DNA of 64,000 bases, taken from assembly GCA_001899635.1 (NCBI GenBank), contig MKVQ01000043.1, positions 124,001 to 188,000 of the forward strand, in the 5' to 3' direction. How positions within the stretch are numbered: the first letter of the stretch is position 1; every line of letters starts with the position of its first letter. This DNA comes from Myxococcales bacterium 68-20 (GTDB taxonomy: Bacteria > Myxococcota_A > Polyangia > Polyangiales > Polyangiaceae). A model generated the notes under the pieces. The model made no database searches. It was not told the origin of the DNA and saw nothing but the letters and a program-made list of their open reading frames with translations. Both the position numbers and the translations under genes were made by a program. Below are positions 1-24,218 of this stretch, piece after piece.

Positions 1-1105
1 ACACATCGACCAGTGCTTCCTGTAGCGCGGCGACCGCCGGCGGGCCGTGCGTCTCGGGAAGCTCCTGCGCGCATAGCGGGCACATGTGCCCAGCCGTGCC
101 CCCTTCGAAGATTCCGATCGTAGCAAGTCGGGCCTTCTGCTCCTTGGCCTCGCGGGAGAACCCCTTCTCGTCCTTGGAGAAGGAACGCGCTGCATCGATA
201 TCGGCCCGCAGGCGTCTCTGAGTTTCGAGAAGCTCAGCGCGCTCCGTCGAGAGCCGCGCGAACTCCAAGCCATCGGGAAGCGTGACATCGACGCTGGCGA
301 GGGGCGCCCGTGCCACCGCTCGAAGCGCAGTCAGCGTGTCTTCCCACGACGTCGTCACGGCGTTCGAGAGCCCTGCGTCACGCGTCTGCGCCAACAACGC
401 ATCCGCCTTGGTTGCGCCGTCTCCGCGCAGTGCCGAGATCTCCGCGAGGCGACGCTCGACAGCTCGAAGCTGGTCACGAAGGCGCCGGAGTTCCGCCCGC
501 TTGCGGACGTGATCGTCATCGACGGCGCCAAGCAGGTACGGCAACGTGTCCTTCAGCGCGAGCGCGAAGAACGTGTCGTCCGCTCCGTGAAAGAGCTGCT
601 GCCGACGGATGATCTCGTCCTGTCGCTGAAAGCAAAGAGCCAGCGCATGCCGAACCGTCGCCGAGAGCGAGGGCCGCTTCTGCCCGGGGGGCGTCTCGTG
701 AAGGTTGTCGCGAATTCCGACCCACGACGTCAGCAGCGCGAGGGCCCCCTTGGTGTTCGTCGTCTGCCGCAACTCGGCAGCCGACGGCAGCTCGACGGTG
801 CTCGCGGTCTTGATGAAGAACTCCTCGCTCGATGCGCCCTTCAGGGGTGGGCAGCGTCGCGCGATGAACGCCTGCCCCGACGTCAGTTGCAGTCGAATGC
901 CGAACCAGGCGACACACTGTCGGATCGGTCCGTGGGGGACACGGCACTCGCTGCTGCCGAAGCAGTAGTCGACGACGTCGATAAGCGCGGACTTCCCGGT
1001 CTTCGACGCGCCGGTGATGACGTTGACTTGTCCCACCTTCAACGGGAGCACGCGCTGGCGACCGTCGTGGCTGTAGAGAACGATGTCGAGAATCTGGACG
1101 CTCAT
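1..1105 (-). CDS. ABC-3C system ATPase, DUF3732 family (partial, C-terminus off the left edge)
   Basis: The protein starts MSVQILDIVLY and has a Walker A motif GASKTGKSAL near residues 31-40, the form seen in SMC/Rad50-like ATPases of the DUF3732 family. A coiled-coil-like middle is followed near residue 340 by CPLC, which resembles one half of a Rad50-type zinc hook, so the visible 368 residues are the N-terminal head plus the first coil; the second coil and Walker B lie outside the window. Its ATG overlaps the stop of the upstream middle-component gene as ATGA, implying translational coupling. In the family literature DUF3732 ATPases are the motor of ABC-three-component conflict systems. 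The role in phage or plasmid defence is inferred from family and neighbours; no activity can be read from sequence. Confidence 0.85.
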   Translation of the reverse strand, partial: MSVQILDIVLYSHDGRQRVLPLKVGQVNVITGASKTGKSALIDVVDYCFGSSECRVPHGPIRQCVAWFGIRLQLTSGQAFIARRCPPLKGASSEEFFIKTASTVELPSAAELRQTTNTKGALALLTSWVGIRDNLHETPPGQKRPSLSATVRHALALCFQRQDEIIRRQQLFHGADDTFFALALKDTLPYLLGAVDDDHVRKRAELRRLRDQLRAVERRLAEISALRGDGATKADALLAQTRDAGLSNAVTTSWEDTLTALRAVARAPLASVDVTLPDGLEFARLSTERAELLETQRRLRADIDAARSFSKDEKGFSREAKEQKARLATIGIFEGGTAGHMCPLCAQELPETHGPPAVAALQEALVDV

Positions 1106-1599
1106 GGACGTACCCCCAGCAGCGCCATCACGGTCTCGATGCCGCCGGCTCTCTCGAGCCACTTTCCGAGGAACTCAGCGCGCTTGGCGCACGCGCGGAC
1201 TTCGTCACTCGTCGGCTTCAGCCCGGCTGCGACCCGCTTCTTCATGTCGGCGTTCGCCCGAACGCCATCAGCGCTCAGCGAGAGCAGGCCGTGCGAGCCG
1301 CCGAACACCAGTGCCTCTCTCGTGAAAGGTTTTAGCGAGGCCGCTCGCTCTCCTAGGCGCGTGCGCACGATTGGGTGCTCGATGAGCCAGGTCGCGAGCG
1401 AAGTGGTGATATTGCGAGGAAGGCTCTCGCGCGTCTGCTGATGGAGCACGAACGGCAGCACGAGGAACGAGAGCTCAATGGCCATCGCGGCCTTGCGCTC
1501 AGAGGCGTATCCGAGCGCCGCGTGCCACAGCAGAGTGGAGCAGAAGCCCGGATTCAGCAGGTTCCGTTCTTCAAGCGATCGCGCATGCCAGGAGGTCAT
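1102..1599 (-). CDS. ABC-3C system middle component (DUF6521-like)
   Basis: This 165-residue protein opens with the pattern RNLLNPGFCSTLLWHAALGY, then an ELSFLVLPFVLHQQTR segment and a SLATWLIEHP segment. These are the hallmarks of the small middle component that sits between the nuclease/CTD protein and the DUF3732 ATPase in ABC-three-component systems. Both ends overlap neighbours by four bases (ATGA), so the three genes form one coupled unit in the usual order. No catalytic motif is visible; the family is thought to bridge the ATPase and the effector. The assignment rests on motif recognition and gene order, and the exact middle-component subfamily is not certain. Confidence 0.8.
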   Translation of the reverse strand: MTSWHARSLEERNLLNPGFCSTLLWHAALGYASERKAAMAIELSFLVLPFVLHQQTRESLPRNITTSLATWLIEHPIVRTRLGERAASLKPFTREALVFGGSHGLLSLSADGVRANADMKKRVAAGLKPTSDEVRACAKRAEFLGKWLERAGGIETVMALLGVRP

Positions 1600-2840
1600 T
1601 TCGCATCACCTCCGGCCGCAGCCTTGGGAGGTGTAGCGCCGAGGTTCAGGATCTCGGCGAGGCGGTCGTGGAAGTCGGGGTGCCATCCGATACGCGGCGG
1701 CGCCTCGTCCGCGAGCATGTGGAACGAGCCGCGCACGACGAACGACTCCGTGACACCGGGACGAATGGCGATGCTCGCCTGCTCTGCCCACGCGAGCACT
1801 GCGCGCGCGGCCTTCCGCTTGGCGGCTTCGACGGCGGTAGCCTCGATCTCGTCCTTGGCCGCCTCGAAGACCAGCTCCCACTCCTCGACGAGCTTCCTCT
1901 CGTAGCGAGTCAGGTCGCCGACGAGCAGGAGGTCTTCGCGCAGCCACCGGGACCGCTGTTCGTAGGCTCGATAGAAGTCCCGAATCGCGGCGGCGACGCG
2001 CTTCTTGCTTGCGTCGATGAGCTTGAGCTGGTGAACGAACCGATAGTCCGCGTGGGCGGCATGCGTCTCGTCGTCCAGCGTGAACGAGACGAGGTCCTCA
2101 TCAATCGGAAGGTTGTCCTGCTTGAACTGCTCGCGCAGCTCGGACATCTCCGCTTCGAGCTCGGCGCTCAGGATTCCAACCGCCTGCGGGCTCGACGAGA
2201 GCTGCTTGATGACCCGGCGAAGCCACCAGCCTTCGAGACGCTTCAAGAACGCGTCGAGGTGCTTGTGCTCGGCGGTCCAGAAGACTTCGTTCTTGAGGTC
2301 GTCGTCGATGGTGAGGACGCCAGGCGCGCGGTCGAGGACAACGACACTGTCGAGGATGGTCCGGCGTGCGGTCGCCGACGCGGCAAGGAACGCCGCGTAG
2401 GCAGGCGCGTTGGCTTGGCTCTCAGAGCTTTGAGCAACGGACTCGAGGACCGGCAGCGCCTTCCCGACGTCACGGCCTTCGCTGCGCAGGAGCGACGCTG
2501 CGCTGTCCTTCGGCGCCTCGCCCGTCGTGAGCAAGTAGAGCGCGGTGCCCGCAGGGATCTGCCCGTTGGCGTGCCCCTCGAACCACACGCGGAGCGACTT
2601 CCACAGGTCCCCGCTCGCGTTCGAGAGGGACGCCTCGTGATTCCTGTGGTGCTTGGTCTGGAGCAGCTCCTCGGGCGTGCCACCCTTCGACTCGAAGGTC
2701 ACGTCGTCGAGCGTCTCGAGAGAGACGATGAAGTCGGCGCCGGTCTTCGCACGGCGAAGCGACCATAGAAGCGCAACGCGAACTTGGTACAGATACCCGA
2801 GCGCCGAATCGGCTGCGGAGAACGTGTTGCTCGCCCTCAA
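1596..2840 (-). CDS. ABC-3C system protein with Cap4-like dsDNA nuclease N-terminus and C-terminal domain
   Basis: This is the likely effector of the ABC-3C unit. Near the N-terminus are ALGYLYQVRVALLW, then SLETLDDVTFE and LLQTKHH, matching the GxxYQ, E-D and QxKH positions of Cap4-type restriction-like nucleases. The remaining ~250 residues are helical and charged, as in the C-terminal domains of ABC-3C proteins. The open frame continues upstream to 3062, but that extension is Arg/Ser-rich and unlike the family, so I place the start at a TTG at 2840, where GGGGGAGG precedes it (short spacing) and where homology-like sequence begins; this gives 414 residues. The gene overlaps the middle component by four bases. 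Function as a DNA-degrading effector is inference from the family. Confidence 0.75.
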   Translation of the reverse strand: MRASNTFSAADSALGYLYQVRVALLWSLRRAKTGADFIVSLETLDDVTFESKGGTPEELLQTKHHRNHEASLSNASGDLWKSLRVWFEGHANGQIPAGTALYLLTTGEAPKDSAASLLRSEGRDVGKALPVLESVAQSSESQANAPAYAAFLAASATARRTILDSVVVLDRAPGVLTIDDDLKNEVFWTAEHKHLDAFLKRLEGWWLRRVIKQLSSSPQAVGILSAELEAEMSELREQFKQDNLPIDEDLVSFTLDDETHAAHADYRFVHQLKLIDASKKRVAAAIRDFYRAYEQRSRWLREDLLLVGDLTRYERKLVEEWELVFEAAKDEIEATAVEAAKRKAARAVLAWAEQASIAIRPGVTESFVVRGSFHMLADEAPPRIGWHPDFHDRLAEILNLGATPPKAAAGGDAK

Positions 2841-3329: not shown

Positions 3330-3534
3330 TCGCTCGATCGAGAGCCAAGCCGCAAGTCCACGTGACGGCACGAGGATGGTTTCCTTCAGCTGACGCCGGA
3401 GACAACGGCCCCTCGATGATCTTCGCAAGGGCGTGCCCAAGCGCTTGGAGACGATTTGACCGCAGAGCCGCCACGCCTACCTTCCCTCCCGCGGCCGGAC
3501 ACACGACGCCCGGGCTCACGGGGATGGACCGCAC
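3330..3534 (-). pseudogene. recC 5' relic (frameshifted N-terminal fragment)
   Basis: Read from a GTG at 3534 the fragment gives GKVGVAALRSNRLQALGHAL and then AKIIEGPLS, which parallels GRAGVTQVQRSNQLEALLDG and AKVVETPLSS of the intact RecC encoded at 21055-24174. A one-base frame change near 3390-3399 then restores LKETILVPSRGLAAWLSIER, matching AKETILVPSRALAGWLSTEL of RecC. Similarity stops near 3330. Nucleotide similarity also extends upstream of the start codon to about 3580, including a dyad. It is therefore a decayed copy of a recC 5' end with its promoter region. Divergence is substantial, so it is an old duplication or the relic of a second, transferred recBCD locus rather than an assembly artefact. 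Confidence 0.75.
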
Positions 3535-3562
3535 ATTCCATCACAAGCGCTCCCGCCGTGGC

Positions 3563-3580
3563 ATCACCCCTAGGGATTAC
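3563..3580. promoter_or_regulatory. Decayed copy of the recC upstream dyad
   Basis: The sequence atcacccctagggattac lies about 30 bases upstream of the recC relic start. It is the counterpart of the perfect dyad atcacccctgagggtgat in front of intact recC (24201-24218). The left arm is unchanged and the right arm has mutated, while the flanking ggcatcacccct is shared. Confidence 0.45.
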
Positions 3581-3738
3581 CATCGCGCCCACCAGTTGGG
3601 ATAATCGAGTTCCGCGTGAAGGTGCGGTCGTTCTCGCGGCATGAGCGCCGGAGCGGGAACGGTCAAGACGCCACATTCGAATGATCCGTTGTCTCCGAGG
3701 CGCTATTATCGAGCCTTTTACCCCACAAGGATGAATGC

Positions 3739-5094
3739 ATGGCGCCCGGCTGGTACCCCGATCCGCACAACCCCTCGCTCCAGCGCTGGTGGGACGGTCG
3801 CGCATGGAGCCAGCACACGCAGCCAGCGGCGCCGCCCTCGTGGCGCGGAGGCGTCCAGCAGATGCCAGCCTTCCAGCCTGCGGCGCCGAACCCGTTCCTC
3901 CCGCAACCCTCGCCCGCAGCGGCGCCTCCAGCATCGAATCCGTTCGTTCCGCCGACGCCACCGCCGGCACCTTCGCATCCCCTCCAGCCGGAGATTGCCA
4001 GCGCCGAGGCGCGGCTCGCCGCCCTCCGCCGCGAGCTGGACTCCGTCGAGGAAGCGCTGGAGATCCAGTCGTTCGGTTTCTACCGGCCGAAGTACGGGTT
4101 CGCCACGTCGTCCGAGTACGCTGCGCGGCTCGATGTCATCCGCGCTCAGCAAAAGGCGATGGTGAAGAACGGAACGGCGACGTACTGCGATACGAAGTGG
4201 CACGTCGGCGGCAGCGCTGCCGACGGCAAGAAGATGATCGAGCGGATGTCGAAGTTGATGCTCCGGGCCTTCAACGGGGAGTGCGACGCGGCGATCGCGA
4301 AGGTCCGCTACGACAACGTGACGAAGCTCGAGCAGCGCGTGACGAAGTCATGCGAAGAGGTCAACAAGCTCGGCCACTCGAACCGGGTCATGATCACCAT
4401 GCCGTACTACCAGCTCAAGCTGCAGGAACTGCATCTCGTCCACGAGCATCGCGAGAAGCTCCAGGCGGAAAAGGACGAGCAGAAGCGCATCCGCGAAGAG
4501 ATGCGCGAAGAGGAGAAGGCACGCGACGAGATCGAGCGTGCGAAGGCACAGGCCGAGCGTGACGAGGCGGCCAAGCAAAAGGCGCTCGAGAAGGCACGCG
4601 AAGACCTTGCAGCCTCGATCGCGACCGAGAAGCAGCACGAGAAGCTGGAGGCCCTTGTCTCCCGGCTCGAGAACGAGCTGAAAGACGCTCTCGACCGGAA
4701 GGCGAAGGCGATCGCCAGGGCGCAGCTCACGAAGTCGGGTTACGTCTACGTGCTGTCCAACATCGGGTCCTTCGGCGAGGGCGTCTTCAAGATCGGCCTG
4801 ACCCGTCGGCTTGACCCCTACGAGCGGGTCGACGAGCTCGGCGACGCCTCCGTGCCCTTCGGGTTCGACGTGCACGCGATCATCTATGCGGAGGATGCGC
4901 CCGGACTCGAGAACGCCCTCCACCGCGAGTTCGCCGAGCGCCGCGTCAACCGGGTGAACGTGCGCAAGGAGTACTTCCGCGTGACGCTCGACGAGATCAA
5001 GGTCGCCGTTCAGAAGCACCACGGCCTCGTCACTCTGGTTCTCGACGCCGAGGCAGAGGAGTGGCGGAAGACGCAAGCGATGCTGACGGCGTGA
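3739..5094 (+). CDS. DUF2510-DUF4041-GIY-YIG nuclease
   Basis: Domains in order: a DUF2510 module at residues 2-28 (PGWYPDPHNPSLQRWWDG), a Pro/Ala-rich linker to about 85, a DUF4041-like region with helical pairs, a highly charged coiled coil (about 230-325), and a C-terminal GIY-YIG domain of the T5orf172/MUG113 type from about 332 (GYVYVLSN, then FKIGLTR, then a HREF segment and EYFRVT). GIY-YIG domains cut DNA with one metal ion. Proteins joining DUF4041 to GIY-YIG have been reported as membrane-linked anti-phage nucleases that act on incoming genomes; here no membrane helix is visible and DUF2510 takes the N-terminal place. AAGG eight bases before the ATG supports the start. The gene stands alone between ABC-3C debris and the hsd operon, facing the same way as hsdM. 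Confidence 0.85.
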   Translation: MAPGWYPDPHNPSLQRWWDGRAWSQHTQPAAPPSWRGGVQQMPAFQPAAPNPFLPQPSPAAAPPASNPFVPPTPPPAPSHPLQPEIASAEARLAALRRELDSVEEALEIQSFGFYRPKYGFATSSEYAARLDVIRAQQKAMVKNGTATYCDTKWHVGGSAADGKKMIERMSKLMLRAFNGECDAAIAKVRYDNVTKLEQRVTKSCEEVNKLGHSNRVMITMPYYQLKLQELHLVHEHREKLQAEKDEQKRIREEMREEEKARDEIERAKAQAERDEAAKQKALEKAREDLAASIATEKQHEKLEALVSRLENELKDALDRKAKAIARAQLTKSGYVYVLSNIGSFGEGVFKIGLTRRLDPYERVDELGDASVPFGFDVHAIIYAEDAPGLENALHREFAERRVNRVNVRKEYFRVTLDEIKVAVQKHHGLVTLVLDAEAEEWRKTQAMLTA

Positions 5095-5291
5095 GACTCG
5101 GCGGCCCAATGGCCGCGCACTCCTGGTACCTGACTGGGCGACCTGCCTGAAAGCGTTCGGCGTCACGCACGTCCCACGCCCCGCCTCGTCAAGCATGAGC
5201 CGCCAGCAGCCCTGTACTTTCGCCGCCTTATCCATCACCAGCGAGGCTCGAGCCGGTGTACCCTGCGTCCGTTTCTCACGATCGCAAGAAC

Positions 5292-7703
5292 ATGCCGCTC
5301 ACCCTCGCCCAGCTCGAACGTCACCTCTTCTCCGCCGCCGACATCCTCCGCGGCAAGATGGATGCCTCGGAGTTCAAGGAGTACATCTTCGGTGCGCTCT
5401 TCCTGAAGCGCTGCTCCGACGTCTTCGAAGCGCGCTTCGAGGAGATCGTCGCGCGCGAGAAGGAGAAGGGACGCTCGCTCGCGGACGCGAAGAAGCGGGC
5501 GAACCACCCGAGCTTCTACGCCGACTCGTTCTTCGTTCCGCCCGAGGCGCGGTGGTCGTTCCTCCGTGACGAGGCACACAAGAACGTCGGCGACCGCCTG
5601 AACGAGGCACTCGGCGCGCTGGAAGACAAGAACACGAGCCTCGAAGGTGTGCTCGCGCACATCGACTTCACCCGGAAGGTCGGCCAGTCGACGCTTCCGG
5701 ACAAGAAGCTGCGCGACCTCATCATGCATTTTTCCGAGGTGCGGCTGCGCAACGAGGACTTCGAGTACCCCGACCTCCTCGGCGCCGCCTACGAGTACCT
5801 GATCCGCGACTTCGCCGACTCGGCCGGCAAGAAGGGCGGCGAGTTTTACACGCCCCGCGCCGTCGTTCGCATGATGGTGCGCATCGCCGGACCGGAAGAG
5901 GGTATGAAGATCTACGACCCGTCCTCCGGTTCGGGCGGCATGCTCGTCCTCGCGAAGGAGTACCTCGACGAGCACGGTCTCGACTCGAAGAACCTCGGGC
6001 TCTATGGGCAGGAGTCGAACGGCGGCGTGTGGTCGATCAGCAAGATGAACATGCTGCTCCACGGCATCCGCGACGCCGACGTCCGGAACGAGGACACCCT
6101 CGCCTCGCCCCAGCACACCGAGGGCGGCGAGCTGATGCGCTTCGACCGCGTCATCACGAATCCGCCGTTCTCGCAGAACTACGATCGCGGCACGCTCACC
6201 TTCCCCGAGCGGTTCCGGTTCGGCTGGTGCCCGGAGGCCGGCAAGAAGGCCGACCTGATGTTCGTCCAGCACATGCTCGCAGTGCTCCGCCCCGGCGGCA
6301 TGGTCGTCACCGTCATGCCGCACGGCGTCCTCTTCCGAGGCGGCGCCGAGAAGGACATCCGCACCGGCATGTTGAACGAGGACCTCCTCGACGCCGTGAT
6401 CGGCCTCGGGTCGAACCTGTTCTACGGGACCGGCATCCCCGCCTGCATCCTCGTGCTGCGCGCGCCCGGCGCGAAGCCGAAGGCGCGTAAGGGCAAGGTG
6501 CTCTTCATCAACGCCGACCGGGAGTTCAGCGAGGGCCGCGCGCAGAACTATCTCTTCCCCGAGCACATCGAGAAGATCGTGAGCGCATGGCATGCCTTCG
6601 AGGACATCGACGGCTTCGCCCGGGTCGTCTCACGCGACGAGCTGAAGGCCACCGACGACAACCTCAACATCCGCCGCCATGCAGACAATGCCCCGCCGCC
6701 CGAGCCGCACGACGTGCGGGCGCACCTCCACGGCGGCATTCCGGGGGGTGAGGTCGCCGCCAAGCGTGCCGCGTTCGAGGCGCATGGCTTCGCCCCGGCG
6801 CGCCTCCTCGTGAAGCACGCCGCGCCGGGCTACTTCGACTTCGCGCCCGGGCTGAACGACAAGGCCGAGCTGAAGGAGCGGATCGAGTCCGACGACGGCG
6901 TCGTTGCGAAGGAGCGCGCGCTCGCCGACTGCGTCGAGGCGTGGTGGAAGAAACACAAGAAGGCGCTTGCCGACCTGCCCGAAACCCGGGAGCTGATGAA
7001 GGTCCGGGCGCACCTGCTCGGGAGCTTCGAGAAGGTGGTCGGTCCGGTCGGGCTCCTCGACCGATTCCAGGTCTCCGGCGTGGTCGCCAGCTGGTGGGGC
7101 GACATTCAGAGCGATCTGCGCACGGTCGCGGCGCGCGGCTTCGTCGGCCTCGTCGAGGCGTGGGAGACGAGCATCCTCACGGCGCTCGAAGACGGCAAGA
7201 GGAAGGAGAATCCACTCGACCACCGGCTCGTGAAGCGCCTCCTCCCCGAGTACCTCGCCGACCTCGCCGAGCTGGAAGGGAAGAAGGCGGAGCTGGAGGC
7301 CACGCTCAAGAGCGCAAGCGGCGGCGACGAAGAAGACGAGAGCGAGGACACCGAAGAACGCGAGGAGCAGCTCTCCGAGGAGGAGTTGGCTGCGCTGAAG
7401 AAGCAGCTCGCCACGACGAAGCGGGCGCTCAAGGCGAAGCAAGAGGACTTCGCCCGCAAGCTGAACGAGGCGCGGGCTGCGCTCGAGGAGCCCACCGCGC
7501 GGGCTCTCGTGCTCGGCATCGTCCGATCCGATCTCGACGCCATTCTCGGCCGCTACGTCACCGCGCGCCGTCAGGAGATCGTCGCGGCGTTCGAGAACTG
7601 GTGGGAAAAGTACCGCGTCACCCTGACGAGCATCGAGGCGGAGCGCGACGCGACGGTCGCGACACTCCATGAGTTTCTGGTGGGGCTTGGCTATGGCGCC
7701 TGA
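5292..7703 (+). CDS. hsdM: Type I restriction-modification system methyltransferase subunit HsdM
   Basis: HsdM transfers a methyl group from S-adenosylmethionine to adenine in the site chosen by HsdS. The N-terminal helical domain begins [19 protein letters not shown]; the methylase core has [11 protein letters not shown], motif [12 protein letters not shown] (usually DPxCGSGG) and motif IV NPPF near residue 290. At 803 residues it is longer than the common ~500-residue HsdM: after the catalytic core come a long helical region and an acidic coiled coil ([15 protein letters not shown]). I chose ATG 5292 because homology begins there; a GTG at 5256 with an upstream GAGG would add 12 residues. 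The stop overlaps hsdS by 11 bases, so the subunits are translationally coupled. Confidence 0.93.
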
Positions 7704-9036
7704 GTTCAAGTCGACCCCGTTCGGCCCCATCCCTCAACACTGGGGGCTCTCGCCCATAGGTTCGGTCGGGACGGTACAGGTCGGACGCGCACGGTCCCCA
7801 GGAACCGACAAGGGGCCAAACATGGTTCCGTACCTGCGCGTGGCAAACGTCCTCGATGGCTACATCGACTACTCGGACGTTAACGAGATGAACTTCTCTC
7901 CGACCGAGCAGAAGAAGTACACGCTCCAGAAGGGCGACATCCTTCTCAACGAGGGACAGAGCACTGAACTGGTCGGGCGGAGCGCGATCTACGACGGCCC
8001 CGAGGATGGCTACTGCTACCAAAACAGTCTCGTGAACTTCCGCTGCGGTTCCACGGTCGAGCCACGGTTCGCCCGAGCGGTGTTCAAGAGATGGCTCGAC
8101 ATCGGTCACTTCACCACGATCGTGAAGCAGACCACGAGCATGGCGCACTTGGGCGGTGAGCGCTTCGCTCGCCTTGCGTTTCCCGTTCCGCCCCTCGCCG
8201 AGCAGCGCCAGCTCGCCGTGATCCTCGACACCATCGACGACGCGATCTGCAAGACCGAGCAGATCATCGCCAAGCTGAAGCAGGTCAAGCAGGGCCTGCT
8301 CCGCGACCTCCTCACCCGAGGCAGCGACCACAACGGCGAGCTACGCGACCCCGAGCGCCATTCCGAGCAGTTCAAGCACTCGCCCATGGGGCGAATTCCG
8401 AGGACGTGGCAAGCGTCCACGCTTGGTTCGCTCCTTGTTGGCTCACCCCAGAACGGCGTCTACAAGCCGGGAACCGAGTACGGTGTTAGCGGCTCGCCGA
8501 TTGTTCGAATCGATGCGTTCTACGATGGGGTTCTCAACGACGTGAGCACCTTCAAGCGCGTGAAGCTGACCGACGGCGAGAGGCTGCTCTATCGCCTCGA
8601 AGAAGGAAATATCCTCATCAATCGTGTAAACAGCATCGACTACGTAGGCAAGGCAGCCCACGTTCCTCAACTCGATGAGCCAGTCGTGTTCGAGTCGAAC
8701 ATGATGCGCCTGCGAGTGGACCGGACGCGTCTTGATCCTGGGTACGCGATCCGTGTCCTCTGCGCATCGCCAGCACGGCAGTTCTTCTTCAGCAGGGCAA
8801 AGAGCGCGATCGCTCAGGCCAGCGTGAATCAGACTGACGTGCGCGATGTCCCCATAGCGCTTCCTGACCTTGGGGAACAGCAGCGCATCGTGGCAGTGCT
8901 GGGCAACTTCGAGTCGCGACTGGGTGCGGAGGAAATTGTCCTGGGCAAGATTCGTCTGCTGAAGCGGGGTCTCATGGAAGACCTCCTTACCGGGCGCGTC
9001 CGCGTGACCAGGGGCCTGGAGCAAGCGGCCGAATGA
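7693..9036 (+). CDS. hsdS: Type I restriction-modification specificity subunit HsdS
   Basis: HsdS reads the bipartite DNA target and holds HsdM and HsdR. The 447 residues show the expected two-half design: a first target-recognition domain, a central conserved helical repeat ([20 protein letters not shown] then [15 protein letters not shown]), a second target-recognition domain opening with [15 protein letters not shown], and a C-terminal helical repeat ([17 protein letters not shown] then [16 protein letters not shown]). Both halves are complete, so the enzyme should recognise an asymmetric two-part site, which cannot be predicted here. The ATG at 7693 lies inside the end of hsdM, and the stop overlaps hsdR as ATGA. 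Confidence 0.92.
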
Positions 9037-12000
9037 CCAGCGGCCCGGAGTTCACCGACGTCGAAAAGCCCTTCCTCGACCAGCTAGCGTCGATGGACTG
9101 GAAGACCATCACCGGCAGCGTCGACTTCCCCTCGGTGACTGGCCGCGCGAACTTCCGCGAAGTCCTCATCAAGGACGATCTCGCGAATGCCCTTCGGCGC
9201 ATCAACCTGCGCGACGGCAAGGAGTGGCTCGACGCCCCCCGCATCGCGCAGGCGATCGGCACACTCGAACGCATCAGCCACCCGCGCCTTATGGAGGCGA
9301 ACCAGGAAGCGACGCGGCTCCTCCTCGAAGGCGTCACGGTCGAGGGCCTGCCCGATTGGAACCAGGGGCGCGACCAGACGATCCAGTTCATCGACTGGAA
9401 CACCCCCGAGAACAACAGGTTCGCCGCGGTCAGCCAGTTCAAGGTCGACTGCCCTGGCGGCATGTCGAAGGGCTCGATTCGCCCGGACATCGTGCTCTTC
9501 GTCAACGGGATCCCGCTCGTCGTCGTCGAGTGCAAGAGCCCGAAGAGCTCGGAGCCGATGGCCGGCGCCGTCGACCAGCTCCGGCGCTATCACAACGCGC
9601 GCAAGGAAGCCGGCGAGGTCGACGAAGCGGAGGGCGCCGAGCGGCTCTTCTCCACGAACCAGTTCCTCATCGCGACGTGCTACGACGAAGCGCGCGTCGG
9701 CACCATCGGGGCCGAGCTGGTCCACTACCTGGAGTGGAAGGACACAGCGCCCGTTCCGCAAGCGAAGGTCCAGGAGGAGCTGGGAAAGGCCACGCTCTCC
9801 AGCCAGAACAAGCTGATCGCCGGAATGCTCCGCAAGGAGCACCTCCTCGACATCATCCGGCACTTCACGATCTTCCAGCAGGTCGACGGCCGGACGGTAA
9901 AGGTCGTCAGCCGCTACCAGCAGTTCCGCGCCGTGCGCCGCGCCGTCGAACGGCTGCGCACCGGCAAGACCAGAAAGCAGGACGGCGAGCACGATCGACG
10001 AGGCGGCCTCGTCTGGCACACACAGGGCTCGGGCAAGAGCCTCACCATGGTCTTCCTCGTCCGGAAGATGCGCTCGGACTCGAAGCTGCGGAAGTTCAAG
10101 ATCGTCATCGTCACCGACCGCAAAGATCTTCAGAGGCAGCTTGCTGGGACGGCCGGCCTGACCGGCGAGACCGTGAAGGTCGGAAAGAGTGTCGGCGACG
10201 TGAAGCGGCTCCTCGCGAAGAAGGGGCCGGAGATCGTCTTCGCCACCATCCAGAAGTACGTCGATCGCGAGATCGACCAGCTCGGTCCCACGGACGAGGT
10301 GGACGACGTCGGCCTACTCAATGAGGACGAGAGCATCCTCGTGATGGTCGACGAGGCGCACCGCAGCCATTCAAACACTCTCCACGCGACACTGCTCCAG
10401 GCCCTACCGAACTCCGCCCGCATTGGCTTCACCGGGACGCCCATCATCATGGGCGACAAGAAGCGGACGCACGACATCTTCGGCGAGTTCATCGATCGCT
10501 ACACGATCAAGGAGTCTGAGGCCGACGGCGCGACGGTTCCGATCCTGTACGAGGGGAGATACGCCAAGGGCGCGGTCGCCGACGCGGCCGGGCTCGACGA
10601 CGAGCTGGCGGAGATGTTCCCCGAACTCACCGCCGAGCAGCGCGAAGCGCTGAAGCGCAAGTACGGGACGCTCCTCGCCATCCTCGAAGCCGAGGAGGTC
10701 GTCCGCGACAAGGCGAGCGACATGCTCCGTCACTACGTCGCGAACATCTTGCCCAATAGCCTCAAGGCGCAGGTCGTCGCCATTAGCCGGCGCGCAGCGG
10801 TTCGCTATCAGAGAACCCTCGCCGTGGCGCGCGACGAGCTGGTGGCCGAGGCCGATAAGCTCGACGCGGCGACAAGAGCCCTCGACGACCTGGAGCTCGA
10901 GGGGAAGCCGAAGAAGCTCCAGGCTTCCGTTCGTGCTGCACGACAGCTCGAGCGCCTGCGCAGCCTCGACTTCGCGACCATCATCTCACCCGACAACAAC
11001 GATCCGCCCGAGTGGAAGGAATGGACGGACGGGGCCAAGGCGGAGGCGCGCATCGCACGCTTCAAGAAGCCGTTCGAGCACGAGGATCCCGAAAAGCGCG
11101 ATCCCCTCGCCTTCCTGATCGTGAAGTCGATGCTCCTCACCGGGTTCGACGCGCCCATCGAGGGCGTCATGTACCTCGATCGCCCCATTCGCGAGGCAGA
11201 GCTGCTCCAGGCAATCGCTCGTGTGAACCGAACCGGCCATGGCAAGACGGCCGGCATCGTCGTCGACTACTACGGCGTCGCGCAGCACCTGAAGGACGCC
11301 CTCACCGCGTACAGCGTCGAGGACATCGAGGGCGCGCTCCAGAGTCTCGCCGACGAGATCCCGAAGCTGCGCGACAGGCATGCCCGCGTCATCGGTCTGT
11401 TCGACGCACGCGGCGTCGACGCGATCCGGGATGCGGAGGCGGCGGTCGAGGCCCTCGCCGACGAACGGCTCAGGGCCGAGTTCACCGTGAAGCTGAAGCA
11501 GTTCCTCGCGACCCTCGATCTCGTGTTGCCTCGGCCGGAGGCGCTCCCGTTCGTCCGCGACGCCACCCTCCTCGGCGAGGTCTACGCCCGCGCGCGCAAC
11601 CGATACCGCGAGGGTCTGCCCCAGCTCGACAAGGGCGTCGGCCGCAAGGTACAGGCGCTCATCGACGAACACATCGTGTCGCTCGGCATCGATCCGCGCA
11701 TCCCGCCGATCGCGATCACCGACGCCAAGTTCGCCGCGCAAGTCGGACGTCAGGTCTCGGACCGCGCGAAGGCGTCGGAGATGGAGCATGCCATTCGGCA
11801 CCACATCAAGAGGAAGCTCGACGAGGATCCCGTCCACTACCAGAAGCTGTCGGAACGCCTCGAGGAGATCCTCCAGAGATTCGGAACCAGCTGGGAGCAG
11901 CTCGCCCTGGCGCTAAGCGACTTCATCGAGCAAGTCAGGAAGGGCCGAAGCCAGAACGAGAGCATCCCCGGACTCGACCCGGAGATTCACGCGCCCTTCT

Positions 12001-12284
12001 TCGACGTGCTCAAAGAGGAGCGCCAGCAGCAGGCGCCCGTCAGCGCCGCAGACGCGACCTGGCTCGCAGGGCTCACGGTCGACATGGTGGAGCGGCTCAT
12101 CCGCGAGGCCGCAAGTACCGTCGGCTTCTGGAAGAGCGCGCAGCGCCAGAACGAGCTCCACGGCCAGCTCGTCGTGTTCTTGGACGATGCCGGGGTCGTC
12201 GAGCTCGAACGGGCGGACGCACTCGCCGATCGCTTGATGGACCTCGCCAAGGCGAACCAGAGGAAGCTCACGAGAGCCGAATGA
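9033..12284 (+). CDS. hsdR: Type I restriction endonuclease/translocase subunit HsdR
   Basis: This 1083-residue subunit couples ATP-driven DNA translocation to cleavage. The nuclease domain carries the PD-(D/E)xK motif as RPDIVLFVNGIPLVVVECKS near residues 149-168. The SF2 motor follows with Walker A HTQGSGKSLTM near 328-338, motif II VDEAHRSHS near 437-445, motif III GFTGTPI, and motif VI QAIARVNRT. The C-terminal helical part probably docks to HsdM/HsdS. All catalytic residues are present, and no frameshift is seen, so the system looks active. It starts inside the hsdS stop and its own stop overlaps the downstream metallopeptidase gene by four bases. Confidence 0.95.
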   Translation: MTSGPEFTDVEKPFLDQLASMDWKTITGSVDFPSVTGRANFREVLIKDDLANALRRINLRDGKEWLDAPRIAQAIGTLERISHPRLMEANQEATRLLLEGVTVEGLPDWNQGRDQTIQFIDWNTPENNRFAAVSQFKVDCPGGMSKGSIRPDIVLFVNGIPLVVVECKSPKSSEPMAGAVDQLRRYHNARKEAGEVDEAEGAERLFSTNQFLIATCYDEARVGTIGAELVHYLEWKDTAPVPQAKVQEELGKATLSSQNKLIAGMLRKEHLLDIIRHFTIFQQVDGRTVKVVSRYQQFRAVRRAVERLRTGKTRKQDGEHDRRGGLVWHTQGSGKSLTMVFLVRKMRSDSKLRKFKIVIVTDRKDLQRQLAGTAGLTGETVKVGKSVGDVKRLLAKKGPEIVFATIQKYVDREIDQLGPTDEVDDVGLLNEDESILVMVDEAHRSHSNTLHATLLQALPNSARIGFTGTPIIMGDKKRTHDIFGEFIDRYTIKESEADGATVPILYEGRYAKGAVADAAGLDDELAEMFPELTAEQREALKRKYGTLLAILEAEEVVRDKASDMLRHYVANILPNSLKAQVVAISRRAAVRYQRTLAVARDELVAEADKLDAATRALDDLELEGKPKKLQASVRAARQLERLRSLDFATIISPDNNDPPEWKEWTDGAKAEARIARFKKPFEHEDPEKRDPLAFLIVKSMLLTGFDAPIEGVMYLDRPIREAELLQAIARVNRTGHGKTAGIVVDYYGVAQHLKDALTAYSVEDIEGALQSLADEIPKLRDRHARVIGLFDARGVDAIRDAEAAVEALADERLRAEFTVKLKQFLATLDLVLPRPEALPFVRDATLLGEVYARARNRYREGLPQLDKGVGRKVQALIDEHIVSLGIDPRIPPIAITDAKFAAQVGRQVSDRAKASEMEHAIRHHIKRKLDEDPVHYQKLSERLEEILQRFGTSWEQLALALSDFIEQVRKGRSQNESIPGLDPEIHAPFFDVLKEERQQQAPVSAADATWLAGLTVDMVERLIREAASTVGFWKSAQRQNELHGQLVVFLDDAGVVELERADALADRLMDLAKANQRKLTRAE

Positions 12285-15474: not shown

Positions 15475-15492
15475 TGACACTTCCGAGTGTCA
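15475..15492 (-). terminator. Hairpin at the end of the recCBD operon
   Basis: TGACACT and AGTGTCA form a perfect 7-bp stem with a 4-base loop overlapping the recD stop codon. It lacks a T-run, so it may be a transcript 3' end or stabilising hairpin rather than a classical intrinsic terminator. Confidence 0.45.
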
Positions 15493-17343
15493 AGCCCACT
15501 GCCTCACCGTGATCCCCGACGCCCTCTCGATCGGCCGCGTCACCGCCGCCGCGACCACCTCCGCGTCGCCGAACACCACCACGCGCCGCCGCGCACGCGT
15601 CACCGCCGTGTAGAGCAGCTCCCGCGTCAGGATCGCCGATGCCTCGCGCGGTAGCACCACCGCGACCTCGTCGAACTCCGAGCCTTGCGACTTGTGCACC
15701 GTCATCGCGAACACGGTCTCGTGCGGCGGGAGACGCGAAGGCGCGAGCTTCCGCACGGTGCCCTCGGCGGTGAAGAACCACGCACGCGCCGCGTCGCCGT
15801 CGTCCGCGTCGGGAAGCACGAGCCCGACGTCGCCGTTGAAGAGGCCGACCTGGTAGTCGTTCTCGCGGACGAGCAGCGGGCGACGCGCGTACCACGGCCC
15901 GACCGGGCGGAGCAGGCCCTCCTCCGCGAGCGCGTCCGCGACGAGGGCGTTGAGCGTCTCGACACCGAGCGGCCCGCGTCGGTGCGCGGCGAGGACGCGG
16001 AAGCGCCCGAACGCGTCGAAGCACGCGCGCGGGTCGCGTTCGCAAAGGTACGCGCGGTAGCCGTCGACGACGCACGCCCGCAGCGCGTCGCCGAGGGCGT
16101 CCTTCGAAGATGGGCTCGAAAACCACCGCACGTCGTCGTGCCCCGCGGCGAGCACCGCCGCGGCGCGCTCGGCGTCACCGTCGTTGATCGCCTGCGCGAG
16201 CGTGGCGATGCCGCTGCCGGCCGGGTAGCGGTAGTTGCGCCGAAGCTGCACGACGCAGTCTTCGATCCCCGCGTCGCCTGCATCGCTCGCCGCGACGGGC
16301 ACGTCATCGCCGCTCAGCGTCGTCACGTGCGTCGCGAACGCGCGCGAGAAGCCGACCGGGCGCGGCGGGCCGCAGAGGTCGCCGAGGATCGCGCCGGCCT
16401 CCACGGAGGCGAGCTGGTTGCGGTCGCCGAGGAGGATGAGGCGCGCGTGCGGGGGGAGCGCGTCGACGAGGCGCGCCATGAGGGCGAGGTCGACCATCGA
16501 GGCCTCGTCGACGAGGAGCACGTCGGTCGGGAGCGGGTTGTCCGCGTCGTGGCGGAAGCGGCTCAGGCTGCCGGGGACCGGGCGGAGGGCGCGGTGGATC
16601 GTCGAGGTCGCGTCGGGGACCAGCGCGCGGATCGACTCGTCGACGTCGAGCTTGGCGCGCTGCTCGAGGATCGCCTCGCGGAGGCGCGCGGCGGCCTTGC
16701 CGGTCGGCGCCACGAGCGTGACGTGGAGCTTCTTCTTGCCCGCGAGGACGGCTTGCTCGGCGAGGAGCGCGAGGATCTTCACGACCGTCGTCGTCTTGCC
16801 CGTGCCGGGGCCGCCCGAGATGATGCAGAAGCGGCGCGCGACGGCGACGAGCGCGGCGAGGCGCTGGACGTCGAGCTCGCCGGGCGCGAGGCCGTCGCGC
16901 GGGAAGAGGCGATCGAGGCTCGCTCGGAGCGCCTTGCCGTCGAGCTTCGCCTCGAGGTGCTCGATCCGCTCGCCGAGCTGCCGCGCGAGGCGCGTCTCGT
17001 AGCGGAAGTAGCGCCGCAGGTAGAGGCGCTCTCCCTCGAGCACCAGCGGCGTCGTGTCCGACGCGCCGCCGACCACGCGCGAGCCACGGAGGGTCTCGAG
17101 CCACGCCTGGAGCGAGGGCCACGCGGCGCCGTCGGGAGCGGCGGGCCCCTCGAGCAAAGGCTTCACGAAGCGCCCGAGATCGAGGCACACGTGCCCGTTC
17201 CGCACCGCACGGCTCGCCAACGCCGCCGCCAGAAGCACCTCGGGCCGGCTCTCCCCCGCCATCCGCACGACGCCGCGCGCGAGCTGCTCGTCGAGGAGCG
17301 ACAGCTCGCCGGCGGCGCGGAGCGCGTCGAAGAGGTCAGCCAT
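15490..17343 (-). CDS. recD: Exodeoxyribonuclease V alpha subunit RecD
   Basis: RecD is the 5'-3' motor of RecBCD. The 617 residues match the size of E. coli RecD. Visible motifs: Walker A SGGPGTGKTTTVV near residue 175-187, motif II LLVDEASMVDLALMARLVD, motif III LLGDRNQLASVEAGAILGDL, and the C-terminal pair MTVHKSQGSEFDEVAVVLP and LLYTAVTRARRRVVVFG (motifs V-VI). The start overlaps the end of recB by eight bases, so it is the last gene of a recC-recB-recD operon. All motor motifs are intact. Confidence 0.95.
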   Translation of the reverse strand: MADLFDALRAAGELSLLDEQLARGVVRMAGESRPEVLLAAALASRAVRNGHVCLDLGRFVKPLLEGPAAPDGAAWPSLQAWLETLRGSRVVGGASDTTPLVLEGERLYLRRYFRYETRLARQLGERIEHLEAKLDGKALRASLDRLFPRDGLAPGELDVQRLAALVAVARRFCIISGGPGTGKTTTVVKILALLAEQAVLAGKKKLHVTLVAPTGKAAARLREAILEQRAKLDVDESIRALVPDATSTIHRALRPVPGSLSRFRHDADNPLPTDVLLVDEASMVDLALMARLVDALPPHARLILLGDRNQLASVEAGAILGDLCGPPRPVGFSRAFATHVTTLSGDDVPVAASDAGDAGIEDCVVQLRRNYRYPAGSGIATLAQAINDGDAERAAAVLAAGHDDVRWFSSPSSKDALGDALRACVVDGYRAYLCERDPRACFDAFGRFRVLAAHRRGPLGVETLNALVADALAEEGLLRPVGPWYARRPLLVRENDYQVGLFNGDVGLVLPDADDGDAARAWFFTAEGTVRKLAPSRLPPHETVFAMTVHKSQGSEFDEVAVVLPREASAILTRELLYTAVTRARRRVVVFGDAEVVAAAVTRPIERASGITVRQWA

Positions 17344-20300
17344 GATCGAGCACCTCCGAGAGCGCCTCGACCATCGCGCGCGTGGGGCGATCGAAGAAGA
17401 TGCCCGTGCCTGCCGGGTGCGACGGATGCATGCCGCGCGCGAAGAGATAGAGGACGCCGCCGAACGCGCGATCGTAGTCGTAGCCGCGCATTCGCCGCTC
17501 GAGCCAGCGGTGAACCGCCAGGGTGTAGAGGTGGTACTGGAGGAAGTAGTTCGCGTGGGACATCGCGGGCGCGAGACGCGCCGAGGCGTAGTCGCTCGCC
17601 GTGACGCCGAGGTGGTTCGACTTGTAGTCGACGACGTAGAAGCGGCCTTCGTGCTCGAAGACGAGGTCGATGAAGCCGCGGAGGAAGCCGCGAAGCGGGA
17701 GGAAGCCGAGCTTCGCGAGCTGCTCGTCGACGTACGCGCGCGGGACGGCGTCCGTTCGATGCTTTGCGAACGCGGCCGCGATCGCCTTCGCCGTCACCTG
17801 CGTCCGCGGCTCTTGCGTCACGGGGAGCAGGAACTCGAGCTCGTCGATGCGGCGCGCACGCGGGATGTCCCGGAGGCGCGCGCCGATGCCGAGCGGCGTG
17901 TCGAGCATCGCGTCGATGGCCGCTGCGAGCGCGGGCTCGAGGCCCTTGTCGCCGTAGCCGAAGGCCGCGAGCTTCTCCCGCACGAGCCGCTCGTGCGCTA
18001 CCGGATCGCGATCGGTGAAGTCGTGATCCTCGAGCACCGCGTGGAGCATCGTTCCGGCCTTCGTCCCGCGCGGGAAGTCGTGCAGGAGGACACGCTCCGG
18101 AAGAGCGCCGCCGGAGCTCGCGCTCCCCTCGCCTCGCCCTTCCGAAGCCGCATGGTCGCCGACCTCGTCGCGACCGCGGCGCTCCGCCTCCGGTGCGCTG
18201 GCCTCGATCGCGACCTCCTCGATCTCGTCGCGGTCACGCCCCTCTGCTTCCGGCGCTCCCACGCTCGAGTGAGCGCCGGACGTCATCGCGGAGAAGCTGC
18301 CGATCCGCCACCACCGATCGATCGCGCGATCGTAGTGGCGCGCGCGGAGCTCGCCGCCTTCGCGCTCGTCGCCGTCACGATACGGTGGCGGCGACGCCCC
18401 GTTCAGGTCGAGGTCCCGGACACCGACCGCGCCCTTCGATGCTTCCTCCAGCACGCGAAGGTCGGCGCGGAGGTCGCGGTCGGAGACGTCCTTCCACGAG
18501 GCGGACGCGCGCTTCGAATGCAGCGTGTACGCGAGGCACGACGCGTCCGCGTGATTGACCGCTCCCCACACGATCGAGCAGCGGTGCTTCGCGCGCGTGA
18601 GCGCCACGTAGAGGAGCCGCTGGACCTCGGCTTGATCCTCGCGCTCCGCGGCGGCGACGGCGTCGGGCGCGGTCTTGGGCGCGAGATGGAGCTTCGGGCG
18701 ATGGTCGTCGTTCGCGTCGTGGAACGGCAGGCACTTCTCGTTCGCTTTCGGCCGGACCGCCGCGTCCCAGAGGTACGGGCAGTACACGATCGGGAACTCG
18801 AGCCCCTTGCTCTTGTGGATCGTGAGGAGCTTCACCGCCCGCGCGTCGCTCTCGAGGCGGAGCTCGGCGGCCTCGCCTTCGAGCAGACCGGTCTCGTGCG
18901 GCGCGCTCCGCATCGCGCCGAGCCAGCGCACGAGCCCGCTCAGACCGCGGCGCTCGCGACGCGACGCGCTGTGGAGCAGATCGCCGAGGTGGAGCAGGTT
19001 CGTCACCCGACGCTCGCCATCGACGTACGAGAGGAGGCGCGGCTCGACGCCGAGATCGCGCAGGAGGCCCCGGTACGCAGTCATGAAGCCCCGGCTCGCC
19101 CACACCTCCTGGATCGCGCGGAAGCGCTCCGACCACGCTTGCCAGCCGCTCTCGTCGGCCTCGAGCGCCACGATCGCCTCCGCCGAGAGGCCGACGATCG
19201 AGGTGCCGAGCGCCGAGCGGAGGACGCCCGTGCGCGTCGGCTCGAGCACCGCGCGCAGCACCTGCTCGAGCTCTCCGCACTCGAGCGACTCGAACACGCT
19301 CGCCTCGCTCTCGAGCACCGTCGGGACCTCGAGCGCGCGGAGCGCGTCCTGGACGGCACGCGCCTGCTTGTTCGTCCGCGTGAGGACGGCGACGTCGCCC
19401 GCGCGCACCGGCCTGCCCTCGATCCGCGCGCCGGACGCGAGGAAGCGCACGATCTCGGCGGCGACGAGGCCGGGCACGAGCTTGCCGAGCGCGCCCTTGT
19501 TGTGCGGCGAGTCCTGGCCCGGTCCGCGCGGAAGGAAGAGGATCTCGAAGGGCTTGCCCTCCTTGCCGTCCGGGCCGTCCTTGCCTCCCGCGAGGGTGAG
19601 GCGATCGCTCTCTGCGTGCGCCTTGACGGGATGGAACTCGATCTCGTCGAAGACGAACGGCTTGTCGGCGCGCTCGAAGATGGTGTTGACGGCGCGGACG
19701 AGCGACGGATCCGAGCGGCGGTTCGTGTCGAGCGTGTACGGCGCGCCGGCGGCGTCCTTCGCGGCCTGGAAGTAGGAGAATACGTCGGCGCCGCGGAAGG
19801 CGTAGATCGACTGCTTCGGATCGCCGACGAAGAGGAGCGGCGTTCGCTCGTCGTGGAAGACGCGCCGGAAGATCCGGAACTGCACCGGATCGGTGTCCTG
19901 GAACTCGTCGATGAGCGCCGCTTTGTATTGGCCGCGGAGCGCACGCGCGAGGGCCTCGCCGCGCTCGCCGCCGTCGCCCACGAGCGCGCGATCGAGCGAC
20001 ATCAGCAGATCGTCGAAGCCTTGCACTCCGCGCGCGGCCTTGCGTGCGGCCATCTCCCGCCGGACGTAACCGGCGAGCTCGTGCTTCAGGCCGAGCACGA
20101 GATCGACGCCGGCGCGCTCGGCGATGTCGGCGAGCGCCTCGGCCTCCGCGAAGAATGCGTGGTCGGGCGGGCTCTTCTTCTTGAACGCGCGGTCCTCGAG
20201 CGTGCGACGCGAGAGCATGCGGACGGCGCCCGGGAGCGAGAAGCTCGGCGTCTCCGTCGCGAACAGCGCATCGAGCTCGTCGCACCAGCGCGTGACGTTC

Positions 20301-21058
20301 GCTTCGATGTATCCGTCCTTCGCTTGCGACAGCTCCTTCTTCGCGCCGAGGAGCAGCGTTCGGACGCGCTTGCCGTGCGCACGCCACGTCGTGCGCGCCG
20401 CGGCGAACGCCTTCGCGAGCGCGGGGCGGAGCGTCTCTTCCACGCCCGCCGGAGGAGCGATCGGAAGGATGGGCACGTCCGGCGCACGGCGCGAGAAGGC
20501 ATCCACGAGCGTGCGCGTCGTCTTCAGATCGAGCGCCTTGCGGGCGATCCGGTGGAGGTCCGGCGCCATTGGCACCATGCGGCTCGACCAGTAGTCCTCG
20601 GCGATCTCGCGGGCGAGCTCCGACGTGTCCGGCGTGAGCTCGAGGCCGAAGCGCGCGCCGCTCTCGAACGCGCGCTCCTGAAGGGCGCGGAGACAGAACG
20701 CGTGGATCGTCGAGACCGCCGCGAGATCGAGCTCACGGAGGGCGGCCTCGACGCGGCAACGGCCTTCGTCGCGATCGGCGACGCGCGTGGCGATGGCGCG
20801 GAGATCGTCGTCGCTCGCGCGCGACGGATCCTCGAAGGCCTCGAGCGCCTGGCGAAGGCGGCGGCGGATCCGGCCGCGGAGCTCCGCGGTGGCGGCCTCG
20901 GTGAACGTGACGACGACGATCTGGCTGACCGACAGGCCCTTCTCCACGATGAGGCGGAGGAAGAGCGTCGTGATCGTGTGCGTCTTGCCCGTCCCGGCGC
21001 TGGCCTCGACGAGCGAGGTACCGGCGAGCTTCGCCTCCGCGGGGCGCGCGGCCATCAC
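17336..21058 (-). CDS. recB: Exodeoxyribonuclease V beta subunit RecB
   Basis: RecB carries the 3'-5' helicase and the only nuclease of RecBCD. The 1240-residue protein begins with Walker A VEASAGTGKTHTITTLFLRL, followed by VVTFTEAATAELRGRI (motif Ia). Later motifs are IDEFQDTDPVQFRIFRRVF (II), LLFVGDPKQSIYAFRGAD (III), LLTIHKSKGLEFPIVYCP (V) and RLLYVALTRAKHRCSIVWG (VI). The C-terminal nuclease has LRGFIDLVF and YVVDYKSNHLG near residue 1145 and a QYHLYTLAVHRWL helix, so catalysis is preserved. An Asp/Glu/Arg-rich linker of about 100 residues before the nuclease is unusually polar. The gene overlaps recC by four and recD by eight bases. Confidence 0.96.
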   Translation of the reverse strand: MMAARPAEAKLAGTSLVEASAGTGKTHTITTLFLRLIVEKGLSVSQIVVVTFTEAATAELRGRIRRRLRQALEAFEDPSRASDDDLRAIATRVADRDEGRCRVEAALRELDLAAVSTIHAFCLRALQERAFESGARFGLELTPDTSELAREIAEDYWSSRMVPMAPDLHRIARKALDLKTTRTLVDAFSRRAPDVPILPIAPPAGVEETLRPALAKAFAAARTTWRAHGKRVRTLLLGAKKELSQAKDGYIEANVTRWCDELDALFATETPSFSLPGAVRMLSRRTLEDRAFKKKSPPDHAFFAEAEALADIAERAGVDLVLGLKHELAGYVRREMAARKAARGVQGFDDLLMSLDRALVGDGGERGEALARALRGQYKAALIDEFQDTDPVQFRIFRRVFHDERTPLLFVGDPKQSIYAFRGADVFSYFQAAKDAAGAPYTLDTNRRSDPSLVRAVNTIFERADKPFVFDEIEFHPVKAHAESDRLTLAGGKDGPDGKEGKPFEILFLPRGPGQDSPHNKGALGKLVPGLVAAEIVRFLASGARIEGRPVRAGDVAVLTRTNKQARAVQDALRALEVPTVLESEASVFESLECGELEQVLRAVLEPTRTGVLRSALGTSIVGLSAEAIVALEADESGWQAWSERFRAIQEVWASRGFMTAYRGLLRDLGVEPRLLSYVDGERRVTNLLHLGDLLHSASRRERRGLSGLVRWLGAMRSAPHETGLLEGEAAELRLESDARAVKLLTIHKSKGLEFPIVYCPYLWDAAVRPKANEKCLPFHDANDDHRPKLHLAPKTAPDAVAAAEREDQAEVQRLLYVALTRAKHRCSIVWGAVNHADASCLAYTLHSKRASASWKDVSDRDLRADLRVLEEASKGAVGVRDLDLNGASPPPYRDGDEREGGELRARHYDRAIDRWWRIGSFSAMTSGAHSSVGAPEAEGRDRDEIEEVAIEASAPEAERRGRDEVGDHAASEGRGEGSASSGGALPERVLLHDFPRGTKAGTMLHAVLEDHDFTDRDPVAHERLVREKLAAFGYGDKGLEPALAAAIDAMLDTPLGIGARLRDIPRARRIDELEFLLPVTQEPRTQVTAKAIAAAFAKHRTDAVPRAYVDEQLAKLGFLPLRGFLRGFIDLVFEHEGRFYVVDYKSNHLGVTASDYASARLAPAMSHANYFLQYHLYTLAVHRWLERRMRGYDYDRAFGGVLYLFARGMHPSHPAGTGIFFDRPTRAMVEALSEVLDHG

Positions 21059-24000
21059 GGGACCTCCTTCATGTGCTCGCGAAGCGGCACGAACACGCGC
21101 TCGGCGAGCTCGACGAAGCTCGGCGGCTCCTCTTCGGACGGGCCGTCGAACAGACGGAACGCCGGATCCGTCGGCTCGCCGTCGCCATAGACCTTCACGA
21201 CGTACGCGTTCTGGATGCCGTCGTACGCGTAGTCGCCGCGATACTCCTTGGTCGCGGCCACCAGCGCCTCCTCCGCCGTCTTGCCGCTCACGCGCTTCTC
21301 GGCGTATTCGCTCGCGGGATCGGGGAAGAGCGGCAGCGGCACACGCTGGCCGAGACGATAGAGCGCGACCAGCTCCGCGAGATGGACGAGCGGGCGCTTC
21401 ACCGGCCCGAGCTCGTGGACGACCGGATCACCGTTCGCGTCCTTCGCGATCATGAACGTGGGCCGACGCACACCGGACGCGAGCATGACGAGATGGCGAA
21501 TCCACGCGTCGACCGCGTGCTTGCCGCGCGCGCGGGAGTAGCGATGAAGCACCTGTCCCTTCGCACCCACGGAGCGGAGCCACCCGAGGATGCGCGCACC
21601 ATCGTCGAGCGTGAGGTCGATCTCGAGCGGCTCGGGCGCCGTCGGTCCGAGGAGCTCCGCGACGAGCTTGCCCATCGCGGTGGGCTGCGGGTGGAGGTCC
21701 TCGTAGAGGACGTTGCCCACCGTCCCGAGCGGCAGCGCGCCGGACGCGGCGAGCGCGGGCGGGATCGCGTCGAGGTCCTCGCCGGCGCGCGCGCGGGCGA
21801 CGAGCGGCATCTGGATCGCCCACTTCTCGAGCCCGTCGAGCTCGAGCGGCTCGCGATCGGCGAGCGGCGTGACGTCCCCCGCGAGCAGGACGCCCACACG
21901 GCGCGAGACGAACGCCTGCACCGGATGCGCGAAGAAGGCCGCGAGCTCGTCGACGGTGATCGGCCGCGCCTCGTCCTCACCGGGCGGTGGCGGGAGCGGC
22001 TCGCCGACGAACGTCGGGGCCTTCCCGCGGTCGGCCGTCATCGCCTTCGCGGCCTCGCTCGCCTGCACCGAATGGCTGAAGAGACGATCGTCGGCCTTCG
22101 CGCTGAAGTACCGCGGACTGAACGCGTGAAGCGGATGCAGGACGACGAGCGCCGCGCTCGCGGACGTGGACGCGACGTCGATCGCGTCGAGCATCTCGCT
22201 GACGACGACCGACGGCGGACGCTCGGCGTCGTTCTTGATGCTCCGCCCCGTGTAGGTCACGACGAGCCGATCGCGCGCCGCGAGGAGCGCCTCACGGAAG
22301 ACGCGACGATCGTCCTCGCGGAGCGACGGATCGCCCTCCTTCGGCGAGGCGGCCATCAGATCGAAGCCCAGCGTGTGCGGGGCGCGCGGGAAGTCACCGT
22401 CGTTCATCCCGAGGAGCGCGACGACGCGGGACGGGACGCAGCGACCAGGCGCGAGCGACGCGAACGTGATCGCGCCGATCCCTGCCCCTCCGCCGCTGCC
22501 CGCGCCGCGGTCTTCGAGATCGGCCGCCAGCGCGTCACGCGCGACGGCGAGCGGCACGTGCTCGTCGAAGCCCGCATGGCGCGCGGAGCGGGCGATGTCG
22601 TCGAGCGCGGAGCGGACGATCTGGTGCTGGTACTCCGTCGTGCGCGTCGATGCGACGAAGCGCTCGAGCGCGCTCGAGAGACGCTCTCGCCACGTATCGA
22701 GCGACGCGGGGCCGGTGAGCTCGCCGCGGAGCGCGAAGAGCTGCTCCGAGAACGCCGCGAGCGCGCCGAGCGTGTGGCCTGCGGAGCCGTCGATGTCGTC
22801 GGTCGGCAAGACGCCCGCGAACGTCTCGTCACCGCCGGCGCCCATCGCGTAGCCGAGCAGGAGGCGATCGATCCCGAAGGCCCACGTGTTCTGCCGGAGC
22901 GCGGGCTGTCCGACCTCGGCGCGATGCGCCTCGTCCGCGCCCCAGCGAACGCCGGACTCGATGATCCATCCGCGCACCGTCTCGACGTCGGCCTCGCTCA
23001 GACCGAAGCGCGCGCGGATCGGTTCGCGGTAGAGGAGATCGAGGACCGCCGGCGCGGTCATGCGGGACGTAGCCGTCTCGATCAGCGCGAGGAGCGACCC
23101 GACGACCGGCAGCGTCGCGCCCGCGGGGCGATCCGCGAGGCGGTACGGCAGGTGGAGCGGATCCTTCGGGTCGCCGCCAAAGACGGCGTCGATCGCGGTC
23201 GCGTAGCTCTCGAGATCCGGACACAGGACGCGGATGTCCCGCGGCTCGAGCGAGGGATCGGCCTGCAGCGCGGCGAGGATCTGATCGCGCAAGGCCTCAC
23301 ACTCGCGCGTCGCGCTGTGGCACGCGTGGATCGACACGGAGAGGTCGGCCGGATCGAGCGCGCGTCGCTCCGCGCCGGGACGCGCGCGCTGGAGCTGACC
23401 GAGGACCGACGCCTCGGGCGCGATCGGCTCGCCGGCTTCCAGCTCGAACGCGTGGATCGGGACGACGTCGCTCATCGCCGCGAGCGCACGCGCGACGACG
23501 GGCGCGATCGGTCCGACGCAGAAGACCGAGAGACGCTCGGGCAGCCCCTCGCGCCGCCCGCTCCGGATCTCCGCGGCGAGCCGCTCGACCCTCGCCGCGA
23601 GGTGGGTCGCTCGGTCGGCCGCGACGAGCGCACGGAAGAGCTTTGCCTGCCAGTGCTCGTCCTCTCCGCGCTCCCACCCGGCGACGAGCTCGGGGCGATG
23701 GAGGACGTAGCGATCGAACACCTGCGCGATGCGCGCGGCGAGGGCGAGGCGCTTCGTCCCGTCCTCGTCATCGGCGAGGTAGCGGCGCACCTCGGCAAAC
23801 GCCGCGTCCTCGACGTGCGCCGGCAACAGCGCAGCGATGCTCCACGTGAGCGTCGCGGGGTGAAAGGCGCCCTTCTCACCGGCGGCGCCGTCGGTCGTGA
23901 GCGCATCCACCCATGCCCGCGGCGTCACGAAGTCCGGGTTCGCCCACACGCCGTGCCGCTTCGCCAGCTCGGTCGAGAGCCACCCGGCGAGCGCGCGGGA

Positions 24001-24174: not shown

Positions 24175-24200
24175 TTCACCACAGGCGACGTGTTCTTGGC

Positions 24201-24218
24201 ATCACCCCTGAGGGTGAT
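24201..24218 (-). promoter_or_regulatory. Dyad upstream of recC (candidate operator)
   Basis: ATCACCC-CTGA-GGGTGAT is a perfect 7-bp inverted repeat 27 bases before the recC start. Its left arm and flank are conserved in the recC relic region at 3563-3580. Location fits an operator or a leader hairpin of the recCBD operon; no regulator can be named. Confidence 0.5.

Follow-up and report, generated by a model that had tools for sequence, protein, structure and literature searches.

A decayed copy of the recC start in a defence-gene cluster of Myxococcales bacterium 68-20

A segment of 245 bases at positions 3332-3576, on the minus strand of the DNA analysed here (the window, a stretch of 64,000 nucleotides from Myxococcales bacterium 68-20), is a decayed 5' fragment of recC, with its counterpart at 23967-24214, at the intact gene. 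The fragment is a real but ordinary eroded gene remnant. It probably remains from a second recC start that arose within this lineage when the recC 5' region was duplicated, either by itself or within a larger copy that fell silent early, and it appears to have no function. The features of the locus are the following:

1..1162, minus strand: LmuB-like SMC-like ATPase, assigned by sequence and operon homology; runs about 845 bases beyond the left edge of the window
1102..1599, minus strand: LmuC / ABC-3C middle component MC3, assigned by profile
1596..2832, minus strand: LmuA / ABC-3C CTD7 effector of the Lamassu operon, assigned by profile; homology with two other genomes stops at about 2832
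3332..3576, minus strand: decayed recC 5' fragment, with about 47 codons and, before them, about 100 bp that once lay upstream of the gene; ends in an abrupt cut
3385..3399, minus strand: one-base frameshift of the fragment, between PLSPASA and KETILV
3463..3474, minus strand: GTG GCG GCT CTG, the place where recC once started in the fragment; the intact gene has the corresponding GTG at 24109-24111
3563..3579, minus strand: degraded counterpart of the recC dyad, ATCACCC-CTA-GGGATTA, no longer a good dyad
3739..5094, plus strand: PD-Lambda-1-like protein (DUF2510, DUF4041, T5orf172)
5256..12284, plus strand: type I restriction-modification genes hsdM-hsdS-hsdR
15490..17343, minus strand: recD
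17336..21058, minus strand: recB, assigned by sequence and operon position
21055..24111, minus strand: intact recC, with Pfam Exonuc_V_gamma and RecC_C; the GTG at 24111 is the likely start, and the long open reading frame reaches 24174
24201..24218, no strand assigned: intact dyad ATCACCCCTGAGGGTGAT, upstream of recC

The preliminary description of this DNA had reported a match to the RecC N-terminus in two frames of the minus strand, and nucleotide and protein comparisons both bear it out. When positions 2800-4200 were aligned locally with 23500-24800, the pair 3332-3576 / 23967-24214 reached a score of 108, against a mean of 28.6 and a maximum of 41 in 200 order-2 shuffles. When the window is searched against itself with blastn, the same pair ranks second among the repeats (71% identity over 164 bp, E 7.6e-15), and in a search of the whole genome (11.9 Mb) the fragment matched nothing but itself and the start of recC (E 4e-15). 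By tblastn, the peptide RSNRLQALGHALAKIIEGPLS is recovered at 3462-3400 and, after the one-base frameshift, a second peptide, KETILVPSRGLAAWLSIE, at 3386-3333. An HMM of the RecC N-terminus, made from 59 other sequences with the resident recC and the fragment left out, ranks the fragment second in a 144-kb stretch, behind intact recC (E 9.6e-6, the next match having E 2.2); since this independent model finds it, the fragment is homologous to RecC as a family, beyond a local resemblance of two segments. Significant homology in both the alignment and the HMM is thus joined, as in a pseudogene, to a broken frame and to the loss of everything after about codon 47, counted from the GTG.

The similarity also reaches into non-coding upstream DNA, as had been proposed: 80 of 110 ungapped positions are identical to the region upstream of recC, with 11 gap columns, and in the coding part 98 of 133 positions are identical, with gaps. 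Outside these limits, positions 2800-3331 resemble the recC body, recB and recD, and positions 3577-3740 resemble the recC upstream region, no more than shuffled sequences do, and a search across the genome for the origin of 2833-3331 gave no meaningful match. The dyad, which had been called an operator, has a counterpart within the shared upstream DNA, but it is whole only at intact recC. No second copy of ATCACCCCTGAGGGTGAT was found in the genome, and of the two sister recC genes the one in genome G011 has a loosely similar dyad upstream, with none at the one in genome G007. A dyad that is degraded in the fragment, occurs once in the genome and is missing at one of these sister genes is not supported as an operator; it may be a lineage-specific regulatory site of the recC 5' region. 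Other repeats were also observed in this part of the window: an 87-bp direct repeat, 94% identical, occurs at 24323-24409, just upstream of recC, and at 30030-30116, where an HPP-family gene begins, and the segment adjoining it, 24280-24327, resembles two inverted pieces farther left on the contig.

The fragment lies among defence genes. To its right follow the PD-Lambda-1-like gene, the type I restriction-modification genes and recD-recB-recC, and to its left, on the same strand and about 500 bp downstream, lies a Lamassu/ABC-3C operon, recognized by the presence of LmuA, LmuC and an SMC-like LmuB in one operon, LmuB being assigned by sequence and conserved operon only. The DNA of this operon is 76-79% identical to that of operons in two genomes of other genera (G170 and G021), an identity that ends near the LmuA start, and close relatives of the effector are confined to two other genera. 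Lamassu is likely to be a horizontally shared module, because these operons differ from one another far less than do the recC genes of the same family. A DpdF-like helicase of 403 aa with a RecQ zinc-binding domain is encoded 3.9-2.7 kb left of the window (L035:16053-17264), and the defence cluster therefore extends leftward. Farther to the right, 43901-46978 encodes a type IV methyl-directed restriction helicase, whose C-terminal part has a counterpart in the sister contig JANXVA010000376.1, where it lies downstream of recD (L043:11937-12448; 75% identity over 126 aa), and 36045-41345 is an open frame of 1766 aa with no match in Pfam or PADLOC. The contig also carries a pair of paralogous gene clusters about 84 kb apart, at 54371-61036 and at 29.7-22.9 kb left of the window, with about 65% DNA identity and including an IgGFc-binding-domain protein.

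Within the genus, recC is present in three of 12 genomes, at a single locus each, and the second recBCD for which sister genomes had been suggested as a test was found in none of them; the other two RecC proteins of the genus are only 49-50% identical to the resident one. The best-matching named recC is that of a Myxococcales MAG, carried by the same-genus genome G007. Among 58 genomes, none has more than one recC locus and none carries the fragment. When the intact recC 5' DNA was compared with 183 genomes of the order, only short matches were obtained beyond its own two places, the best being other recC genes and the rest near chance level, and no full-length counterpart of the right-flank XylR_N/STAS protein was found in the genus. 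The ancestral arrangement is not visible, because no close relative shares the locus. A literature search found no title or abstract dealing with such a recC remnant.

It had been proposed that either recC was partly duplicated or a second recBCD was lost; what stands is that the recC start was once present in a second copy, and neither sister genomes nor divergence rates decide between the two origins. The fragment agrees with the resident RecC in 29 of 44 residues and with any other RecC in at most 55%, and two residues that are rare in the family, K14 and K26, are common to both copies. This closest kinship and the shared rare residues imply that the copy stems from this lineage or from a very close source, and the residue comparison makes an origin within the lineage probable. 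A doubtful but possible alternative is that a complete second recBCD, either a paralogue or a closely related import, worked here and was later lost save for the recC start. Differences between the copies fall at the three codon positions as 7, 7 and 16, an excess at third positions which, over 39 codons only and with uncertain timing, hints at translation of the copy during part of its history; this speaks for a lost second locus, as do R4 and G35, which are family-typical in the fragment and changed in intact recC, and the sporadic occurrence of recBCD in the genus, where the locus evidently comes and goes. However, a search of the window, of 60 kb to its left and of 20 kb to its right gave no further pieces of recC, recB or recD, no genome searched holds two recC loci, and upstream and coding DNA have diverged about equally. 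This last observation also suggests that the coding part was not long protected and favours an early loss of constraint. Where the copies differ, departures from the family consensus are about twice as frequent in the fragment, where they affect the conserved E6, P23 and L44 among others, as in intact recC, and in a substitution simulation a continuously constrained copy was very unlikely, while fully or half neutral copies fitted about equally well. We infer that the loss of a long-functional second recBCD is less likely than a duplication that was partial or quickly silenced. The duplicated 5' region, alone or within a larger copy, would then have decayed through point changes and the frameshift, and both of its sides would have been trimmed by turnover in the defence-gene cluster.

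The position of the fragment had suggested a defence island that was inserted at recC or exchanged through it. Such an event at the recC 5' end would leave a displaced start, and two recC starts in direct orientation do bracket 20.6 kb. This reading is extremely unlikely, since a displaced 5' end would be expected upstream of recC, to the right, whereas the fragment sits to the left, beyond recD; the bracketed segment holds recD, recB and the recC body besides defence genes; and the copies are about 71% identical, without a near-identical or att-like core. Moreover, the fragment reads leftward, away from recC, and its missing 3' part would be expected left of 3332, where the Lamassu operon sits. 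A search of the 751-kb contig with PF00589, the integrase profile used, gave no tyrosine integrase, and the window holds no tRNA genes. The bracket is best read as a positional coincidence in a zone of gene turnover. Capture of a recC promoter and 5' leader, now driving or regulating the downstream Lamassu operon, is also a very unlikely account of the fragment, despite the shared orientation, the LmuA start about 500 bp downstream and the part of the dyad region that is kept, as the dyad is no longer whole, an unrelated stretch of 500 bp intervenes and, beyond about 2832, no upstream DNA is shared with the related Lamassu operons of G170 and G021. Regulation of Lamassu by the fragment would link an SMC-type defence to a DNA-end-processing enzyme at the level of expression; that the recC 5' region acts as a regulatory leader tying Lamassu expression to recBCD control is, however, highly improbable.

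The duplicated and eroded recC start thus records one old event of duplication and decay at a defence locus that also has a sporadically distributed recBCD, and it leaves knowledge of RecBCD and of defence-island movement unchanged. Integrative elements can displace the 5' end of a gene, as SXT does in prfC, and the present locus resembles such cases in that a gene start occurs twice in direct orientation; it differs from them in the side of the gene on which the copy lies, in the strong divergence of the copies, in the lack of a conserved core and in that no tyrosine integrase was found on the contig. The fragment is also like the truncated duplicates and pseudogene remnants of bacterial defence islands: it is a short, frameshifted copy of a resident gene, it has abrupt ends and it lies among mobile defence modules. 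Compared with these remnants it is special only in its parent gene, recC, and in having retained part of the upstream DNA.
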